Below, piece after piece: positions 7,382 through 30,926 of a DNA stretch of 64,000 bases. The notes below the pieces were generated by a model. It did no database searches. It worked only from the letters and a program-made list of their open reading frames with translations, and had not been told where the DNA came from. Origin of the DNA: Desulfobacterium sp. (GTDB taxonomy: Bacteria; Desulfobacterota; Desulfobacteria; Desulfobacterales; Desulfobacteraceae); assembly GCA_030145245.1 (NCBI GenBank), contig JAQYWC010000074.1:1-64000 (forward strand). Reading direction: 5' to 3'. The translations under genes and the position numbers were made by a program. Each line of letters begins with the position of its first letter. The stretch's first letter is position 1.

Positions 7382-7410
7382 TTGACACACACAGAACAGT
7401 GTTCTATTTA
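7382..7410 (+). promoter_or_regulatory. Candidate sigma-70 promoter for the tetR remnant / glycyl radical genes
   Basis: A consensus -35 TTGACA (7382-7387) is followed after 17 bp by a weak -10 TATTTA (7405-7410). A palindromic operator occupies the spacer, as expected for a repressor-controlled promoter. The -10 match is only three of six, so the exact start site is uncertain. Confidence 0.5.
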
Positions 7411-7434
7411 AAAATAATATAACAGTGTTATATT
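7393..7434. promoter_or_regulatory. Twin TetR-type palindromic operators
   Basis: AGAACA-G-TGTTCT (7393-7405) and AATATAACA-G-TGTTATATT (7416-7434) are two perfect palindromes sharing the core AACAGTGTT, with centres 26 bp apart. Odd-centred palindromes of this kind are typical operators of TetR-family repressors. They flank the -10 region of the candidate promoter and precede a decayed TetR-like frame, which supports the assignment. Confidence 0.7.
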
Positions 7435-7444
7435 TATCTTCAAA

Positions 7445-7603
7445 AAAGATCAACATATCAAGAAAGCCCCGGTACCAAAAGTTATTGAAACGGTTAAAAA
7501 CGATAGTATTGACGCTAATCTGGAATTAATACTTGATGTTGGCTTTAACAATACGAGTATGAGAAAACTTGCTGATAAAGACGAATTTTTAAAGGGTATT
7601 TAC
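7445..7603 (+). pseudogene. Decayed TetR-family regulator remnant
   Basis: In the frame of 7481 the translation reads NLELILDVGFNNTSMRKLAD, matching the helix-turn-helix start of TetR regulators (AAxxLFxxxGFxxTSMRxIA). The usual GVSxGTxYxxF segment is missing and the frame runs straight into the glycyl radical gene with a stop near 7670. No start codon with a ribosome binding site is evident. A large deletion seems to have removed the ligand-binding domain and joined the promoter region to the enzyme gene. Confidence 0.55.
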
Positions 7604-7607
7604 GATA

Positions 7608-10574
7608 ATGAAAATAAACCATATGAATTTGCTGACCCATGGGGCGCTGCGTTTAATGGCGGCTCAGTTTAATTATCGCCCGTCGTTGAGACCCTATTTG
7701 AAAAGCATGGATGGCTGGATAAATTTTTCAATCGGGATCACCACAGAGAGCGGCAGTGTTTCCCAGGCGATCATTTTCCATGACGGCAAGGTACGGGCAA
7801 CGGGTAAAATGCCCTTGAATGTTGATTCAACAATGAAGTTTGCCAACGAGGATGTGTTGGTGAGCATGGCTAAAAGTACGCCCAATGAGATCTTCAATCT
7901 GGTATTAAAAAACAGGCTTATTGCCCAAGGTAATCTAAATGCCTTACAGGCGTTCAACTTTTTTATTTCTCTTTTAATGGGAAAATCCCATCAAAAAAAA
8001 CTTGATAAAGCCTGCGCCCGGGAACTCAAAGAGAGAAAAGCCGGTGGCAGGGATATGAGTCCAAAGGCTTACACCGCCTTTCTCGAAAGAAAGAACTACC
8101 GGATGAAAGGAGAACAGGGCGCTGATTCCGGAGTCAAATACCTGGAAGATCCTTTTCTTACAAATTATAAAATCGAAGATTTCCCAAGATTACAGGTCTT
8201 CCTTGATAGTCATTTTGAGACTAAACCGGAAGTTTGTCCTGAAAGACCCCAACTCCTGACAAAATGGTTCAGGGAACACGGTTTTGAAGAAACAAAATCC
8301 GGGGAGGCATGGCTTCCGGAATTAAGGCAGGCTTTGGCGTTTAAATATCTGATGGAAAACAGAAAACCGATCATCCGCGAGAATGATCTTATTGCCGGAA
8401 CAACAACTTCAAAGGCTACGGGAGTTACCTGTTTTCCCGATGGGCAGGCGCATATGTTCTGGGGCGAGTTGAATTCGGTCAGTAACAGGATTTTAAATCC
8501 ATATATCTGCTCAAAAGCAACCGCTGATATTCTTCATAATGAAGTTTTGCCTTTCTGGATAAACAGAACGTTCAGGGATTATGTAAGAACAAAATACGAT
8601 TATCCGCTTTGCCAGCAGATCGATGAACGGTTTGTCGCCTATTTTGTCTGGAAATCCGTTGGAATTTCCCACACAATCCCCAATTTCAAAAGACTGCTCG
8701 AAAAGGGGACTCTGGGTATTATTGACGATATTCAAACACAGCTCAAAGAGAATCTTGATCAGACAGAAGAACAATCCCTTGAAGCAATGCAGCTCTGCCT
8801 GGAAGGTATTAACGCATATGCCGCAAATCTTGAAAAAGAATCCAGAAGACTTGCAACGAAGGAAAATAACAGCAAAAGGAAAAAAGAGCTTGAGCATCTT
8901 GTGAAAATTTGTGGCCGGGTTCCGTCCCATCCAGCCAGGACACTTGATGAAGCATTAAATTCAATCTGGATTGTCTGGACCGCAATTCATATGGAAAATT
9001 CCAATACGGGAACGTCCATTGGAAGACTGGACCAATGGCTTCAGCCCTATTTTGAAAATGATATGGCGGAACTTGAGACAGATGAAGAGCGCAAAGCGTA
9101 CATAAAACATGCCATCGAATTGACCGGTTGCTTTTATATGCGCCTTACGGATCATGTTCCGCTTTTGCCGGATGTTGCCAATTTTCTTTTCGGGGGGGCG
9201 TCATCAACACAGGCGGTAACCATCGGCGGGATTACCCCTGAAGGAGAAGATGCTGTTAACGATATGAGCTATATTATCCTCAAGGTTACAGAGATTCTGG
9301 CCGTAAGGGATGTAAATCTCAATGCCCGTTTTCATAGTGATAAAAACAGCGACAATTATTTAAAAAGGCTGTGTGAAGTAAATATCATTACTTCAGCAAC
9401 GCCTATCATGCAGGGGGACAAAGCTGTCATTCAATCCTTGTCCCAGCACGATTACCCTGAAGAAGCAATAAACGACTGGGCAGCGACCGGATGTGTCGAA
9501 CCGACCTTGCAGGGACAGAATTTCAGCCATACAGGTTCCATTTTGCTGAACATGGTGGCTTCCATGGAACTTGCTCTTAACAATGGATTTCATCCGCTTA
9601 TGAACTGGGCACCCGGTCCTGAAACCGGAAGTATAGAAAACGGCGATTTTAAAACCTTTGAAGATTTTTTCAGGGCATGGAAGATTCAGCAAAAATTCAT
9701 TATCGATCAGGCGGTTGAACTGAACAATCTTCTTGGGGAAGCGCATCAGCGGATTCGACCGACTCCATTGTTATCCAGTCTTATTGACGGAGCGATTGAA
9801 AGCCGAAAAGATGTTCTCCATGGCGGGGCAAGGTATAATAGTTCGGGAACGTCCAATATCGGCCTTTCTGATGTAACTGACTCGCTGCTTGTCATAAAAA
9901 AGCTTGTTTTTGATGAAGAAAGAGTCCGCTTTCAGGATCTTAAAAAAGCTATCGATACAAATTTTGAAAATGACCCCGTACTCCATGCAATGGTAAAAAA
10001 CAAGGTGCAGCTGTTTGGTTCCGGGGATAAAGACGCTGTTAAAATGGCAAATCGTGTCGCAAAGGTTGTGCATGACTGTTATATGAATCATAAAAACTAT
10101 CGGGGTGGACGATATTCCGCAGGCTTCTGGTCAATGTCACAGCACGTGGCCTATGGATCATTATCCGGCACCCTTCCTTCCGGACGGTTGGCAGGCAAAC
10201 CGTTTACCCCAGGACTGACACCTACACCCCATGCTTCAAAGAATTTTTTGGATAATCTTTCGGCTGTTGCAGCTCTTAAACCGGAATATATGGATAACAA
10301 CATCGCCTTTAATGTGAAAATCACCCCAGCGCCCAACGAATCCCGGAAAAAAAATGTGGAGACCATGTTTTTTTATGTAAAATCCTATTTTGAGCAGGGT
10401 GGAATGCAGATGCAGTTTAATGTTGTCACCTCTGAGATGTTAAAAGATGCTGTTGCCAATCCGGAAAACTATAGAGATCTGATGGTTCGAATTTCGGGAT
10501 ATAACGCATATTTTGTAACCCTTAACCGGGAAATCCAGCAAGAATTGATCGAAAGGACGGAATATGGCTTATGA
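7608..10574 (+). CDS. Glycyl radical enzyme with N-terminal SCP2-like domain, copy 1
   Basis: The 988-residue protein has three parts. Residues about 20-125 resemble the sterol carrier protein 2 fold (WINFSIGITTESG, NEIFNLVLKNRLIAQGNL, FNFFISLLMG). Residues about 190-840 form a pyruvate-formate-lyase-like barrel with the thiyl cysteine in ATGCVEP (Cys629, with Glu631). The C-terminal glycyl radical domain carries VRISGYNAYF (Gly964). The Cys-x-Glu motif is the one used by glycerol/diol dehydratase-type and related lyases, unlike the Cys-Cys pair of pyruvate formate-lyase. Known members are about 800-860 residues, so the extra length is the N-terminal domain. No activating radical-SAM enzyme is in the window. 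The next gene is a paralogue overlapping by 11 bp. Base composition is AT-richer than the flanks. Substrate unknown; a hydrophobic one is inferred. Confidence 0.88.
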   Translation: MKINHMNLLTHGALRLMAAQFNYRPSLRPYLKSMDGWINFSIGITTESGSVSQAIIFHDGKVRATGKMPLNVDSTMKFANEDVLVSMAKSTPNEIFNLVLKNRLIAQGNLNALQAFNFFISLLMGKSHQKKLDKACARELKERKAGGRDMSPKAYTAFLERKNYRMKGEQGADSGVKYLEDPFLTNYKIEDFPRLQVFLDSHFETKPEVCPERPQLLTKWFREHGFEETKSGEAWLPELRQALAFKYLMENRKPIIRENDLIAGTTTSKATGVTCFPDGQAHMFWGELNSVSNRILNPYICSKATADILHNEVLPFWINRTFRDYVRTKYDYPLCQQIDERFVAYFVWKSVGISHTIPNFKRLLEKGTLGIIDDIQTQLKENLDQTEEQSLEAMQLCLEGINAYAANLEKESRRLATKENNSKRKKELEHLVKICGRVPSHPARTLDEALNSIWIVWTAIHMENSNTGTSIGRLDQWLQPYFENDMAELETDEERKAYIKHAIELTGCFYMRLTDHVPLLPDVANFLFGGASSTQAVTIGGITPEGEDAVNDMSYIILKVTEILAVRDVNLNARFHSDKNSDNYLKRLCEVNIITSATPIMQGDKAVIQSLSQHDYPEEAINDWAATGCVEPTLQGQNFSHTGSILLNMVASMELALNNGFHPLMNWAPGPETGSIENGDFKTFEDFFRAWKIQQKFIIDQAVELNNLLGEAHQRIRPTPLLSSLIDGAIESRKDVLHGGARYNSSGTSNIGLSDVTDSLLVIKKLVFDEERVRFQDLKKAIDTNFENDPVLHAMVKNKVQLFGSGDKDAVKMANRVAKVVHDCYMNHKNYRGGRYSAGFWSMSQHVAYGSLSGTLPSGRLAGKPFTPGLTPTPHASKNFLDNLSAVAALKPEYMDNNIAFNVKITPAPNESRKKNVETMFFYVKSYFEQGGMQMQFNVVTSEMLKDAVANPENYRDLMVRISGYNAYFVTLNREIQQELIERTEYGL

Positions 10575-13551
10575 AAAAAGCATTACTCTCAAAAACCACA
10601 TGAACATCCTGTCCCACTGGACCCTGCGTTTAATGGCAGCCCAGTTCAACTTCAGGCCGTCCTTAGGAAAATTTCTCAAAAGCGCGGATGGATGGACGAA
10701 TTTTTCAATTGGCCTTAAAACTGAAACCGACACAGTGGAGCAGGCGATTGTGTTTCAAGACGGCCGCGTTAAGGTGCTGAAATATATCCCTGAAGATGCG
10801 GATGCCGTCATGCGGTTTACCAATGATAAGGTATTAAAGGGAATCATTAATACCACCCCCAATGAGATGGTAAATCTTATTTTGAAAAATAAAGTCATTC
10901 TGGACGGCAACATGGCCTATCTTCAGGCATTTAACTTCTTTGTTTCGCTGCTCATGGGCAAGCGGCACCAGAAAATGCTGGACCAGGCAAAGCAACGGGA
11001 CAGGAGATCCAGAAAGGAGGAATATGGAATCAATGACCCGGAATTTTCAAAAGAGCTTGCCAAAAGAAAAGAGCATCGGTTAAAAGCTGAAACCATCGAT
11101 CCCGGCGTCAAATACCTTGATGAACCGTATCTGTCCCAATACAGCATAGATTCGTTCCCTCGGATTAAAAGGCTCCATGAAAAATATATTTCAACGACAC
11201 CTGAAATTTCATCGGAGCGACCGGTACTTCTGACAAAATGGTATAGAAAAAACGGGTTTGAAACGGATCAAAACGGCATGCCCTGGGTTCCGGAACTGCG
11301 CCAGGCCCATGCCTATAAATTCCTGATGGAAAACAAAACCCCTTTTATCCGGAAGGATAGCCTTATTGCCGGCACCACCTGCCTGGAGGAGGTGGGTGTC
11401 CTGATCTATCCGGATACCACCGGGACCGTGATATGGGGGGAGCTGGGATCGATTGATCAAAGAGTACTTGCGCCTTACAAGATCTCAGAAAAAACCGTCC
11501 GGGAGCTTCACGATATCTTTCCGTTCTGGGCCAAAAGAACCACCCGGGCATGGATTAATGAAAACCGGGACTATCCCTTTTGCCAGAAAATTGACGAACG
11601 CTTTGTTGCATCGTTTAATTTTAAGCTTGTCAGCATCTCCCATACCGTGCCCGACCTTCCCCGTTTTGTCAATCATGGCACCCATGCCATGATTGAAGAG
11701 ATCCGTCAGCAGATCAATACATTAGCAGAAGGCGATACCGACAAACGGGATACCCTGAACTCCATGATACTCTGTTTGAAAGGATTAAATGCCTATGCCG
11801 CAAATCTTGCCGAAGACGCAAAAATCCGTGCTGAAAAAGAACGGGATCCAAAGCGAAAGGAGGAATTAAAAAAGCTATATCAAATCTGCCGGCATGTTCC
11901 TGCCAATCCTGCCAGAACCCTTGACGAAGCGGTGAATTCCGCATGGATTTCCTGGATCGGGCTGCTTATGGAAAATACCAATGTCTCCCTTTCTCCGGGA
12001 AGATCAGACCAGCTTTTTCAGCCGTTTTTTGAAAAAGAGATGAAAAAGCTATCCACAGAACAGGAGAAAAAACAATATATAGAACATGCCATTGAGCTGA
12101 TATCCTGCTATTTCCTGCGAAATGCAGAACACCATGCCCTTGTTCCGGATGTGTCAAACTATCTGTTTGGTGGAAGCCAGTCACAAACTGCCATAACCCT
12201 GGGTGGCGTTACCCCCGAAGGCAACGATGCCGTCAACGACATGACCTATATATTTTTAAAGGTTACGGAAATGTTATCGATGACGGAGCCGAACATGAAT
12301 GCACGATTCAAACTCGGAATTAACAGCGATACCTATCTTAAACGCCTGTGCGAAATCAATTATATTACGGTTGCGACGCCTTCCATGCATAATGACGATG
12401 CGATCATAAAAGCCTTCAGCCAGAACTCCGATAAAATTGAAGATCTGCGGGACTGGGCATCAACCGGATGTGTGGAAATAACCTTGTCAGGTAAGCATAT
12501 GAGCCATACCGGAGCCACATCGGTGAATATGGTGGCAGGACTTGAGATGGCTTTAAACAACGGTTACCATCCCCTGATGAACTGGCATCTCGGCCCAAGG
12601 ACAGGACAGGTAGAAAATGGAGATTTCAAGACCTTTGACGCGTTTTTTGACGCGTTTGCCGCCCAGCAGAAGTTTATAATAGACAATACCATTGAACTGA
12701 ACAACATGTCGGCAGAGGCCTATGCCCACCTTCGTCCAACCCCGCTCCTGAGTACGGCCATAAAGGGAGCAGTTGAAAATGCAGAAGACGTGACCAAAGG
12801 CGGAGCCCTTTACAACACATCGGGCAGCTTCAACATAGGGCTTTCCGATGTGGTCGATTCCCTGATGGTTATTAAAAAGCTTGTCTTTGATGAAAAAAGA
12901 ATCACCTTTGAAGAATTAAAGAAGGCCATTGACGCCAATTTCCAAGGGAATCCCGCCCTGCATGCAATGGTGCTGAATAAGGTTCCCCGCTTCGGATCCG
13001 GCAGTGACGAAGCCGTTGAGATGGCCAACCGATTAACAACGCTGATCCATGGTTGCTACAAATCAACAAAAAATTTCCGGGGAGGGGATTACACGGTGGG
13101 ATTCTGGTCCGTTGCCCAACATGTTGCCTACGGCACACTTTCAGGCGCACTCCCCTCGGGCCGGCTTGCCGGCCGGGCCTTTACCCCCGGAGCCACACCA
13201 GACGCATCCGCTTCAAAAAGTTTTCTGGATAACATCCGTGATGTGGCGCGGCTGAACCCACACAACATGGACAACAATATTGCCTTTAATGTAAAACTTG
13301 TCCCAGCTCCCGGGGATTCACGGGAAAAAATCGTTAACACAATGTACGCGTATGTAAAAACCTATTTTGAACAGGGTGGCATGCAGATCCAATTTAATAT
13401 GATCAATTCAGAGGTTTTAAAGGATGCCATGGCCAATCCTGAGAACTATAAAAACCTTCTTGTCAGGATTTCAGGCTTTAATGCCTATTTTGTAACCCTT
13501 AACAAGGAGATACAGATGGAATTGATTGGAAGAGCGAAATACGGATTGTAA
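10564..13551 (+). CDS. Glycyl radical enzyme with N-terminal SCP2-like domain, copy 2
   Basis: This 995-residue paralogue is similar in sequence to copy 1 along its whole length, including the SCP2-like N terminus (about residues 25-130). The active-site motif is STGCVEI (Cys636, Glu638) and the radical loop is VRISGFNAYF (Gly971). Its start lies inside the end of copy 1 with AAAGGACGGAAT as ribosome binding site, so the pair is translationally coupled and may form a hetero-oligomer or act on related substrates. Residue differences next to Cys (EP versus EI) and at the radical loop (Tyr versus Phe) hint at different substrates. Both copies keep every catalytic residue, so neither looks decayed. 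Confidence 0.88.
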   Translation: MAYEKSITLKNHMNILSHWTLRLMAAQFNFRPSLGKFLKSADGWTNFSIGLKTETDTVEQAIVFQDGRVKVLKYIPEDADAVMRFTNDKVLKGIINTTPNEMVNLILKNKVILDGNMAYLQAFNFFVSLLMGKRHQKMLDQAKQRDRRSRKEEYGINDPEFSKELAKRKEHRLKAETIDPGVKYLDEPYLSQYSIDSFPRIKRLHEKYISTTPEISSERPVLLTKWYRKNGFETDQNGMPWVPELRQAHAYKFLMENKTPFIRKDSLIAGTTCLEEVGVLIYPDTTGTVIWGELGSIDQRVLAPYKISEKTVRELHDIFPFWAKRTTRAWINENRDYPFCQKIDERFVASFNFKLVSISHTVPDLPRFVNHGTHAMIEEIRQQINTLAEGDTDKRDTLNSMILCLKGLNAYAANLAEDAKIRAEKERDPKRKEELKKLYQICRHVPANPARTLDEAVNSAWISWIGLLMENTNVSLSPGRSDQLFQPFFEKEMKKLSTEQEKKQYIEHAIELISCYFLRNAEHHALVPDVSNYLFGGSQSQTAITLGGVTPEGNDAVNDMTYIFLKVTEMLSMTEPNMNARFKLGINSDTYLKRLCEINYITVATPSMHNDDAIIKAFSQNSDKIEDLRDWASTGCVEITLSGKHMSHTGATSVNMVAGLEMALNNGYHPLMNWHLGPRTGQVENGDFKTFDAFFDAFAAQQKFIIDNTIELNNMSAEAYAHLRPTPLLSTAIKGAVENAEDVTKGGALYNTSGSFNIGLSDVVDSLMVIKKLVFDEKRITFEELKKAIDANFQGNPALHAMVLNKVPRFGSGSDEAVEMANRLTTLIHGCYKSTKNFRGGDYTVGFWSVAQHVAYGTLSGALPSGRLAGRAFTPGATPDASASKSFLDNIRDVARLNPHNMDNNIAFNVKLVPAPGDSREKIVNTMYAYVKTYFEQGGMQIQFNMINSEVLKDAMANPENYKNLLVRISGFNAYFVTLNKEIQMELIGRAKYGL

Positions 13552-28176: not shown

Positions 28177-28924
28177 AGCCACAGAGAAATTGCTCCTTGC
28201 TTCGGGGGCGGTACCCTGCAGTTGGGTTCAATGGTCCCGTGCCAGATCAATGACCTGCCTTTATAGATTGTTCGACTGGCTGTTGCCGGGAATGTACCTT
28301 GGGGTGGGCTATCGGAAGGCATTTTTTGAACAACAGGCAAGAGCGGCAATTGGATCGGGCGCAACCCAGGTATTGATTCCGGGGGCAGGTTACGACACCC
28401 TGGGATGGCGACTGGCCCCGGAGTTTTCGAGTGTTCAGTTCTATGAAATCGATCATCCCGGGACAGCCTGCTTGAAAGCCAGGGGAATTGAAGCCATGGG
28501 TCAGAGGGAAAATCTTCACCTTGTCCAGGCCGATCTGGGTAAACTCAAACTGGCAGATATTTTAAATCCCATCGATTCATGGAATCCTGCTGGAAAAACG
28601 GTGGTCCTGGCTGAAGGGTTGCTCATGTACCTGTATAGGGAGACAGTCAGGGATCTGTTTGTTCAGAGCCATAGAATTACCGGCACAGGCAGCCGAATTG
28701 CCTTTGACTATATCAGTTCCGGGGCCGATGGCCGACCGGATGCAGGGCCATGGACAGCATCGTTCCTATGGCTGCTCAACGCATCCGGTGAGCCTTGGCA
28801 CTGGAGTATCTCCCCCGGCGACCTCAGCGATTTCTTAATCGGCACGGGGTGGACAAATACGCCTGACTTTGTGGGAGAGTCCGACAGGTGCGGTGTTGAG
28901 TTTCTTGGTGTTGCGGTCAAATAA
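28070..28924 (+). CDS. Leucine-carboxyl-methyltransferase-like SAM methyltransferase
   Basis: The 284-residue protein belongs to the LCMT/PPM1 family, with VLIPGAGYDTLGWRLAPE as the SAM-binding motif, YEIDHP as the acidic follow-up motif, and VLAEGLLMYLYRE. Bacterial relatives O-methylate small molecules or unknown acids. The start is ATG 28070, behind GGGAAAGGAATTT; an in-frame upstream ATG is less supported. It is followed after 31 bp by the kinase/beta-lactamase fusion gene on the same strand. Confidence 0.82.
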   Translation: MRKDQASTTAYKVALNVLTLGAEPGMDKVLPSGMVEATEKLLLASGAVPCSWVQWSRARSMTCLYRLFDWLLPGMYLGVGYRKAFFEQQARAAIGSGATQVLIPGAGYDTLGWRLAPEFSSVQFYEIDHPGTACLKARGIEAMGQRENLHLVQADLGKLKLADILNPIDSWNPAGKTVVLAEGLLMYLYRETVRDLFVQSHRITGTGSRIAFDYISSGADGRPDAGPWTASFLWLLNASGEPWHWSISPGDLSDFLIGTGWTNTPDFVGESDRCGVEFLGVAVK

Positions 28925-28955
28925 ACACACGTTCGGCACAGGCAGGAAACACGCC

Positions 28956-30926
28956 ATGGCGGAAAAAAATAACTTGGATAGGATGGGCCATACCCATTCC
29001 AGGTTGCTGTCAGCCCATGAACCCGGGCGTATTGCTGAAGCGCTGGGCAAGGATCATCACCGTGTCCTGCTGTTCGGGGAAATGGGCAGCGGCAAGTCCA
29101 CCCTTACCACCGGGCTTGCCCGGGTCATGGAAAAAGCGGGACGATCCTGTTTCTGCCTGGGGGCGGATCCCGGCTCTCCGGCCTTTGGCGTTCCGGGTGC
29201 CGTTTGCCTTGGCAGGTGGCAGAATAACAGATGGCATCTTGTTGCAATGGAAGCGCTCTGCAGCCTGAATGCAGGCAGGTTCCGCCTGCCGCTGGTATCG
29301 GCGGTGAAGCGCCTTGTCAGGGAATTTGACAGAAAATTACTGCTAGTGGATGCACCCGGGGTTGTCAGGGGAATCCCAGGAGCGGAACTGCTGCCGGGGC
29401 TGGTTGAAGCCGCTTCAATCCAAACCATCCTTGTGCTGTGTAAAAAAGGAAAAGAACTTCCCTGTGCCGGTGAACTCATCTCCACACAGACCTGTATCCA
29501 CAGGGTGCTGCCCTCTCCCCTGGCCCGCCCCCCGGGAAGAGGAAAACGAACCCGTCAGCGGACACGCCTGTGGAATGACTACCTCCAGGATGCAAAGGAG
29601 ATGAGGGTGGACCTTTCCCGGGTCAGTCTGACAGGCACACCTCCTCCCCTGGAATCGGTCAGGGAATTGCAGGGCAGGCAAGTGGCCCTCCTGCAGGGAG
29701 CAACAACACTTACCATGGGCGAGGTGGTCAAGATTGAGAACAACACCCTCCGGATCCGTACCCCCGGCAGGGTAAAAGCGTTCAGCCAGGTGATGATCAG
29801 GGATGCATGCCGCAGTAAAGATGGGGGGCTGCAAACAGCCAGACATGCTGCATCATCTGTCGGTACCCATTGTGTTACCTTCCAAAGGAAAGCGTCAGGA
29901 GCCGGCACATATCCCCCGGCCGTGGTTAGGATAGGGGGTATCACCGCCACCCTGATGAACGGTGTGTTTGGAGATCCCCTTGTTCACTTGCGGTTAATGA
30001 ACCGGAAACAAAGCATGCTGTTCGATCTTGGAAACGGAGAAAGGCTTCCCTCACGTCTGACCCATCAATTGACCCATGTGTTTATCACCCATGCCCACAT
30101 GGACCATATCGGAGGTTTCCTCTGGTTTCTGCGGTCCAGGATCGGAGATTTCCCGCCCTGTAACATCTATGGCCCGCCCGGACTTACCAACCATATCGAA
30201 GGGATGATCCATGGGGTGCATTGGGATCGGATAGGGGAATCCGGGCCCCGGTTCCGTGTGGCGGAACTCCATGGGGATTACTTGCATATAGTTGGGCTCC
30301 AGGCAGGAAAAAAAGGGAGAGAGATACTGGGCCGGGAGCAGGTAATTGATAATATCCTGCTTAAAACATCCACATTCAGCATCCAGGCAATTGTGCTTGA
30401 CCACGGTACGCCGGTCCTGGCTTACCAGTTTAAAAGAATGCCCCAGCTTAACATCCGGAAAAGACTTCTCCTGGAGACCGGCATCTCCCCGGGTCCATGG
30501 ATTGGTGAACTCAAGCGGATCATTGCAGCAGGCAACCGGGATGCCCGGATTCTGCTGCCCGATAACAGCCTGGCCCTGGCCGGCAGGCTGGCTGACGATC
30601 TGCTCCGTGTCAGTCCGGCGTATAAGCTTGTGTATGCAACCGATCTTGCCGACACCCCTTCCAATCGCAACAGGCTGATCGGGTTTGCCAGGAACGCCCA
30701 TACCTTGTTTTGCGAAGCCGCCTTTACCCAGGATCATAAAAAAAAGGCCGCAAGTTCAGGCCATCTGACGGCCCGGGCCTGCGGAGAAATCGCAAGGGCG
30801 GCAAATGTCAACCAGGTGATACCGTTTCACTTTTCCAAACGATACGAATCCAGACCATGGCAGATCTATGATGAGGTAAAATCTGCGTGTGCCAGGATGG
30901 TTATCCCCTCTCAAAGCCCTCACTGA
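28956..30926 (+). CDS. Fusion of Clp1/Grc3-type polynucleotide kinase and RNase Z-type metallo-beta-lactamase
   Basis: In the 656-residue protein the N-terminal part has a Walker A loop GEMGSGKST (41-49) followed by LGADPGSPAFGVPG, the pattern of the Clp1/Grc3/NOL9 5'-hydroxyl polynucleotide kinase family (DxGQxxxxPPG). The C-terminal part from about residue 330 is a metallo-beta-lactamase: THAHMDHIGG near 378 supplies metal ligands, ATDLADT resembles motif IV, and GHLTARACGEIARAA then HFSKRY match tRNase Z. So one chain combines an RNA/DNA 5'-end kinase with a likely 3'-processing nuclease. This pairing suggests RNA end repair or tRNA maturation. ATG 28956 is chosen over a GTG inside the previous gene. 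Confidence 0.78.
   Translation: MAEKNNLDRMGHTHSRLLSAHEPGRIAEALGKDHHRVLLFGEMGSGKSTLTTGLARVMEKAGRSCFCLGADPGSPAFGVPGAVCLGRWQNNRWHLVAMEALCSLNAGRFRLPLVSAVKRLVREFDRKLLLVDAPGVVRGIPGAELLPGLVEAASIQTILVLCKKGKELPCAGELISTQTCIHRVLPSPLARPPGRGKRTRQRTRLWNDYLQDAKEMRVDLSRVSLTGTPPPLESVRELQGRQVALLQGATTLTMGEVVKIENNTLRIRTPGRVKAFSQVMIRDACRSKDGGLQTARHAASSVGTHCVTFQRKASGAGTYPPAVVRIGGITATLMNGVFGDPLVHLRLMNRKQSMLFDLGNGERLPSRLTHQLTHVFITHAHMDHIGGFLWFLRSRIGDFPPCNIYGPPGLTNHIEGMIHGVHWDRIGESGPRFRVAELHGDYLHIVGLQAGKKGREILGREQVIDNILLKTSTFSIQAIVLDHGTPVLAYQFKRMPQLNIRKRLLLETGISPGPWIGELKRIIAAGNRDARILLPDNSLALAGRLADDLLRVSPAYKLVYATDLADTPSNRNRLIGFARNAHTLFCEAAFTQDHKKKAASSGHLTARACGEIARAANVNQVIPFHFSKRYESRPWQIYDEVKSACARMVIPSQSPH

Follow-up and report, generated by a model that had tools for sequence, protein, structure and literature searches.

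A clade of glycyl radical enzymes accompanied by an SCP2-like module, with a possible role in lipid chemistry

A 64,000-nt stretch from the genome of a Desulfobacterium sp. (GCA_030145245.1, 6.4 Mb in 83 contigs; contig JAQYWC010000074.1, positions 1 to 64,000; hereafter, the window) encodes, in tandem, two glycyl radical enzymes (GREs), each with an N-terminal SCP2-like domain. Sequence comparisons place them in an undescribed, new GRE subfamily whose sampled members all come with an SCP2-like module, either fused to the enzyme or encoded by a separate gene. This clade may be built to act on lipids, by radical elimination on a functionalized lipid, a proposal that draws on structural models and that we regard as about evenly poised between right and wrong. 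Both open reading frames (ORFs) are complete, overlap by 11 nt, and have coordinates that were confirmed exactly:

7608..10574, + strand: SCP2-GRE copy A (988 aa), comprising an N-terminal SCP2-like domain, a PFL-like barrel, and a glycyl radical domain (Pfam domains)
7620..8006, + strand: SCP2-like domain of copy A (about residues 5 to 133; alignment to copy B and family hidden Markov model [HMM])
9492..9500, + strand: GCVE loop of copy A with active-site residues Cys629 and Glu631, predicted from sequence
10497..10499, + strand: predicted radical site of copy A, Gly964 in the RISG motif (PF01228 and sequence)
10564..13551, + strand: SCP2-GRE copy B (995 aa; Pfam domains)
10597..10983, + strand: SCP2-like domain of copy B (about residues 12 to 140; AlphaFold model and Foldseek)
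12469..12477, + strand: GCVE loop of copy B with active-site residues Cys636 and Glu638, both invariant in an alignment of 54 sequences
13474..13476, + strand: Gly971 of copy B, predicted radical site, invariant in the same alignment

The two copies are 57% identical to each other, and copies A and B are 87.6% and 88% identical to the first and second GREs, respectively, of an operon from the same genus. The sequence-only reading had seen two full GREs here, and profile searches bear it out: PF02901 (E values of 2e-161 and 4e-159; 539 and 532 bits in copies A and B) and PF01228 (4e-23 and 1e-21; 82 and 78 bits) exceed the Pfam cut-offs in both proteins, which also contain the GCVE loop and the RISGY or RISGF motif, such that both Pfam domains, the Cys loop, and the Gly loop of the GRE superfamily are present.

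When the catalytic half alone was searched (E ≤ 1e-120) against 247 genomes spread over the phylum, the host genome included, 35 GRE genes were recovered in 26 genomes, and an SCP2-like module accompanies every one of them: 24 have the module at the N terminus (two of these, in G211 and G155, inferred from gene halves on different contigs), and 11 have it as a separate gene directly 3′. Four of the 35 genes, three fused and one split, belong to the host genome. Across the 25 other genomes, the domain profile pairs all 31 GREs with a module, which lies in the same frame in 19 cases, on another contig in 2, and separately in 10, these last being frames of 144 to 191 residues directly 3′ of an unfused GRE. 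Genome G273 has two further, weaker matches to the domain profile elsewhere. The N-terminal profile has matches in 16 of 145 genomes, again counting the host.

A pattern scan of an 84,980-species collection returned 285 relatives, the best 80 of which yielded 78 loci; the scan patterns were derived from fused members, and the frequency of unfused forms is not measurable from the scan. The domain HMM matches all 84 GRE ORFs of these loci, fragments included, as recovered with those patterns. By their metagenome-assembled genome (MAG) labels, the 78 loci derive mostly from Deltaproteobacteria or Desulfobacterota, with further labels of Spirochaetes, Actinomycetota, Myxococcota, SAR324, Phycisphaerae, and Gammaproteobacteria. 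At L076, the fused GRE frame (7997-10549) is no more than 850 residues long and stops shortly ahead of a Mutator-family transposase gene (10589-11800). The sequence-only reading knew of no described family with this architecture, and no description was found in the open-access literature (most subscription papers and bioRxiv lie outside this scope), where the only joint match for GRE and SCP2-type terms is an unrelated fungal genome paper; the passages available from PMC13101534 and PMC12583861 do not describe an SCP2-GRE family.

The unfused architecture occurs in the host genome on contig C58, where the genes for a 177-residue protein and an activase come after that for an 816-residue GRE. 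Used as a query, the 177-residue protein has matches in 14 of 145 genomes (host included), and, at 12 of the 13 loci compared on this basis, the SCP2-like gene lies directly 3′ of a GRE; among those 12, an activase adjoins in 11, and the locus contains a DUF6765 gene in 10. One candidate, L186, was rejected as a split cassette (weak match of 1.6e-4, no GRE in 12.5 kb, no activase, and no DUF6765). Ten further split loci from the phylum sample (SCP2-like gene in 10/10, activase in 7/10, and DUF6765 in 3/10) bring the totals, C58 included, to 22/22 for the SCP2-like gene directly 3′, 18/22 for the activase, and 13/22 for DUF6765. No TetR gene was found in the split loci by BLAST with one TetR query. 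The DUF6765 protein gives a hint of zinc phospholipase C at an E value of 0.07, below the cut-off, and figures in no paper of the open-access literature searched.

Profile comparisons indicate that the fused domain and the separate module are homologous: hhalign aligns them with a probability of 98.7% and an E value of 4e-16 (0.3% for a TetR-profile control), and the fused-domain HMM matches the separate proteins at 2e-18 to 1e-14 and at 3e-10. Mean identities in the catalytic part are 59% among fused members, 37% between fused and split members (7 split loci), and 27% between fused members and references. A tree built from 34 catalytic parts groups the 22 fused sequences together and likewise the 7 split ones, and the two groups are sisters relative to five references, a relation that holds only against those few references (CutC, the 4-hydroxyphenylacetate decarboxylase HPAD, and HpsG; a truncated HypD was dropped) and that carries a long-branch warning for HpsG and HPAD. 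The sister branch resembles the fused clade in its catalytic part, its SCP2-like gene, and its activase but differs in encoding the module separately and in the frequent DUF6765 gene.

Some peculiarities of the split loci can be noted alongside. The split-type GREs at L184:3847-6331 and L201:4450-7038 have an interrupted frame, and, at five loci (L192-L196), a 431-residue protein precedes the split GRE; the one that was annotated (L195) is metallophosphatase-like. Near the C58 cassette, a 176-residue frame (L028:1777-2307, − strand) that looked SCP2-like by eye was dropped, having no profile support; the gene beside it resembles, by eye, an iron-type alcohol dehydrogenase.

We consider the assignment of the N-terminal domain to SCP2, which the sequence-only reading had proposed, to be firm because the same-genus orthologue of copy B is marked as over the PF02036 cut-off (21.2 bits, or 21.5 bits with its in-frame neighbors, versus 21.3), because the predicted fold matches SCP2 structures, and because the module is present throughout the GRE clade (35/35). 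Individual sequence scores are modest. Pfam SCP2 has no match in copy A and remains below the cut-off in copy B (14.9 bits versus 21.3; 18.5 bits for the domain alone), such that, among the three Pfam families expected from the first reading, the two GRE domains are found over their cut-offs and PF02036 is not. It reaches E ≤ 0.1 in 9 of 24 family N termini (best, 7e-4) and E ≤ 1 in 5 of 11 separate-module members (best, 0.0064). The family HMM matches the copy A domain at 9e-76, a value obtained with an HMM that contains copy A itself. Searched against the PDB, the domain profile has only four matches at E ≤ 10, all to SCP2 (E values of 0.24 to 0.66).

The structural comparison is based on an AlphaFold model of copy B residues 8 to 160 built from 53 sequences (predicted local distance difference test [pLDDT], 82.7; predicted TM-score [pTM], 0.71), which consists of two helices, four strands, two helices, one strand, and two helices. 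Against the PDB, Foldseek gives 31 matches at E ≤ 0.001, with UbiJ-SCP2 as the best structural match and a best E value of 4e-6. Ranks 1 to 44 are occupied by 31 chains of SCP2, UbiJ-SCP2, or AF1534 and by 13 of alkylsulfatases or YjcS, in which we take the aligned region to be the SCP2-like domain, and other folds begin at rank 45 (E value of 0.014). TM-scores normalized by single-domain targets are moderate (0.46 to 0.69), and a viral structure library has no match to the domain at E ≤ 0.001. The predicted domain shares its fold with UbiJ, AF1534, sterol carrier protein 2, and the alkylsulfatases Pisa1 and SdsA1 but differs from them in sequence, with 11 to 20% identity among the matches named SCP2 or alkylsulfatase; none of these four is known to be attached to a radical enzyme. 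The first reading's figure of about 800 to 860 residues for GREs is not general (the PDB contains a 1150-residue choline lyase chain), but no best-aligned stretch to the GREs of the PDB starts before residue 186. Elsewhere in the sampled genomes, an SCP2 domain over the cut-off lies inside a 924-residue frame (G000 C42:27351-27611), with matches in frames of 918 to 924 residues in G001, G060, and G075.

The host genome has 10 matches to PF02901: copies A and B, a third copy of the same long kind on contig C62, the 816-residue GRE on C58, which NCBIfam leaves unassigned, and six others. By NCBIfam, the last six comprise two CutC, two 4-hydroxyphenylacetate decarboxylases, and one HpsG over the cut-off, plus one HypD-like fragment below it; they belong to the same superfamily, are 22 to 31% identical to the fused clade, and have no frame matching either module HMM in the surrounding 16 to 18 kb (six loci). 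The SCP2-GREs reach none of the NCBIfam equivalog cut-offs (diol/glycerol dehydratase, HypD, CutC, HpsG, and decarboxylases), the best equivalog score being 434 bits versus a required 1100. Their presumed catalytic residues (Cys636, Glu638, His360, His648, and Gly971 in copy B numbering) are invariant in the 54-sequence alignment, which includes both window copies. Among whole-protein folds, an AlphaFold2 model of full-length copy B, built from these 54 sequences (pLDDT, 90.9; pTM, 0.92), comes nearest to those of glycerol dehydratase, 1,2-propanediol dehydratase, and the hydroxyproline dehydratase HypD. With the B12-independent glycerol and 1,2-propanediol dehydratases, the SCP2-GREs share the barrel fold (top Foldseek ranks, 28 to 29% identity) and the Cys-x-Glu pair, and Cys433, Glu435, and His164 of glycerol dehydratase are kept in an alignment read by eye; they differ in possessing the N-terminal domain and in missing every matching equivalog cut-off.

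The active-site residues and fold ranking support elimination chemistry with an altered head-group site. The sequence-only reading had envisaged a hydrophobic and unactivated substrate, such as a lipid, terpenoid, or steroid. Its hydrophobic part survives as the best guess because the module accompanies all 35 GREs and because the nearest folds of the domain are lipid- or alkyl-chain-related; its unactivated part is not supported, as elimination on a functionalized lipid is what both the Cys-x-Glu pair and the resemblance to dehydratase folds suggest. Nor do the data favor its suggestion that the tandem paralogues form a heteromer: each copy retains the full set of catalytic residues, and single-GRE loci are common among the relatives.

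Under the lipid-elimination proposal, a glycyl radical at Gly971 would be generated by a radical S-adenosylmethionine activase, here probably the one on C62, and would move to Cys636, which would abstract a hydrogen from the functionalized head group of a lipid; the SCP2 pocket would hold or deliver the lipid tail. The base and acid would be Glu638, possibly assisted by His360 and His648, and a leaving group, most likely water, would be expelled; the resulting lipid aldehyde or ketone might then pass to the short-chain or 3-beta-hydroxysteroid-type dehydrogenases, the aldehyde dehydrogenase, or the aldehyde ferredoxin oxidoreductase found beside some relatives. The TetR regulator encoded in many of these operons would probably act as a lipid sensor. 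That the whole GRE branch is dedicated to lipids, with an SCP2-type carrier, fused or as a partner, presenting a long-chain or isoprenoid lipid to the thiyl radical, has in our estimate slightly less than an even chance, and we are more tentative still about the substrate, for which our first guess would be a long-chain vicinal diol or glycerol (ether) lipid. If lipid elimination is correct, anaerobes could carry out radical eliminations on lipids of the membrane or wax type, such as long-chain diols or glycerol ethers, an activity for which we know of no enzyme; the characterized GREs known to us act on small polar substrates or add hydrocarbons to fumarate. A lipid-carrier-like module in or beside every sampled clade member suggests radical chemistry on lipids, with a possible bearing on lipid breakdown or remodeling by anaerobes in sediments. 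Direct tests of the substrate are within reach through the module, the operator, and the neighboring dehydrogenases, and two such loci (L086 and L099) lie in the complete genome of a named strain, Desulfoluna limicola ASN36.

Gene neighborhoods were compared across 80 loci (the window, C62, and L084-L161), 78 of which have a GRE ORF of over 900 aa; 53 of these 78 extend for 2.5 kb on both sides. Clusters of neighbors were annotated from one or two representatives each. Among the 53 flanked loci, 36 have an activase, 34 a TetR gene, 26 both, and 9, including the window, neither. An extended short-chain dehydrogenase/reductase (SDR) of the 3-beta-hydroxysteroid dehydrogenase/OleD/HpnA kind and a classical SDR continue the operons in L135, L137, L144, and L147, and a protein of one SDR cluster lies within the operon in L081 and L142, that of L081 containing both parts. 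A cluster of aldehyde ferredoxin oxidoreductases, of which one member was annotated, occurs at 8 of the 80 loci, and 7 of these 8 have it immediately upstream on the opposite strand. None of these neighbors is universal, and neither are the others noted, namely, an aldehyde dehydrogenase (L083), a major facilitator superfamily/OATP-type transporter (L067), an SDR (L077), a fatty acid hydroxylase family member (L087), and a GMC oxidoreductase beside the split GRE of L201.

Several observations count against lipid elimination. No oxidoreductase is universal among the neighbors, and none stands beside the window GREs; the SCP2 assignment is weak on sequence scores; and the separate module's own profile, searched against the PDB, matches FtsH chains (E value of 0.05) rather than SCP2. 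Outlying relatives L083 and L075, which are outside the 54-sequence alignment, lack both histidines. Furthermore, His281, Asp447, and Tyr339 of glycerol dehydratase correspond, by eye, to Val474, Gly650, and Gln541 in copy B. We take these three to be the glycerol-binding residues (a literature search for them found nothing), and, because they are replaced, a diol substrate is only a guess.

The best-surviving alternative, although unlikely in our estimate, is that the SCP2-like module is a scaffold, anchoring the enzyme to a membrane or multienzyme complex or docking the activase, in which case the reaction may be on a small molecule. UbiJ, whose SCP2 domain is the best structural match, is thought to organize ubiquinone enzymes; a separate module adjoining the GRE in the sister branch would equally suit a subunit role, and only one column of the module is invariant. 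Set against this, several of the readable neighbors are lipid-, alcohol-, or aldehyde-type enzymes, and alkylsulfatases are also among the nearest folds. It is improbable that the enzymes are decarboxylases or other C–C lyases with a fatty or isoprenoid acid as substrate, comparable to the arylacetate decarboxylases: the Cys-x-Glu pair does recur in the two 4-hydroxyphenylacetate decarboxylases of the host genome, but the decarboxylase models score far below their cut-offs in copy A (211 bits versus 1150 and 271 versus 1100), 4-hydroxyphenylacetate decarboxylase (2y8n) ranks only 49th among the 50 best whole-protein folds, and the Cys loop of the host decarboxylase homologues differs in length.

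A further question concerns the window copy and not the family, namely, whether its operon is decaying and out of use. The same-genus operon has the order TetR-GRE-activase-GRE-GRE, whereas the window has overlapping GREs without an activase between them and only a remnant of the TetR gene, preceded by two operators:

7395..7403, no strand: operator AACAGTGTT, copy 1, within a promoter-like site of the form TTGACA-17-TATTTA (7382-7410; promoter read by eye)
7421..7429, no strand: operator AACAGTGTT, second copy, 26 nt downstream of the first
7460..7579, + strand: TetR regulator gene remnant (tblastn match at 70% identity to residues 6 to 45 of the TetR from the same genus; no match to the remainder)

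Beyond this remnant, tblastn of the 64-kb window gave only weak matches (TetR, 0.014; activases, 5e-5 to 8e-5 at 48.7 kb). The two operators, at 7395 and 7421, are the only AACASTGTT sites in the window, and the same 26-nt spacing recurs upstream of the TetR gene on C62. Within start regions (250 nt upstream to 30 nt inside), such a site is found in 18 of 36 TetR-led operons and in 1 of 40 others, namely, the window, against an expectation of 0.009 sites per 280 nt computed from all loci, sites included. Contig C62 of the host carries the third copy, with an intact TetR, a GRE, and an activase that is cut by the contig end and is 78.5% identical to the same-genus activase. As read from its sequence, the window copy has lost its controls and retained the promoter-like site and both operators, and regulation and activation of the pair likely occur in trans from C62. 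Decay, to which the TetR remnant, the missing activase, and the lack of any activase match on the window's contig all lend themselves, appears slightly less probable even than decarboxylation, given that both GRE frames are intact and 87 to 88% identical to their orthologues, both operators are kept, and an activase is preserved with TetR at C62.

Least probable of all is that the enzymes activate hydrocarbons by adding them to fumarate, the SCP2 domain supplying an alkane, terpene, or steroid that is unactivated: the hosts are, by label, largely Desulfobacterota and syntrophs, in which fumarate-adding enzymes are known (PMC12583861), but the closest folds and sequences are dehydratases, benzylsuccinate and alkylsuccinate synthases rank only 45 to 48 among the 50 best whole-protein fold matches, the residue at Cys+2 is Glu, and 19 of 75 fused GREs have a TetR, activase, or GRE gene to either side at gaps of <150 nt, leaving little room for small-subunit genes (frames of <90 aa elsewhere were not screened).

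Apart from the GRE genes, the window contains at 28869-30926 (+ strand) a 685-residue ORF, with a predicted start codon, in which a CLP1-type P-loop domain (residues 70 to 240) is joined to an RNase Z-like metallo-beta-lactamase domain (residues 359 to 681), an unusual pairing for RNA processing.

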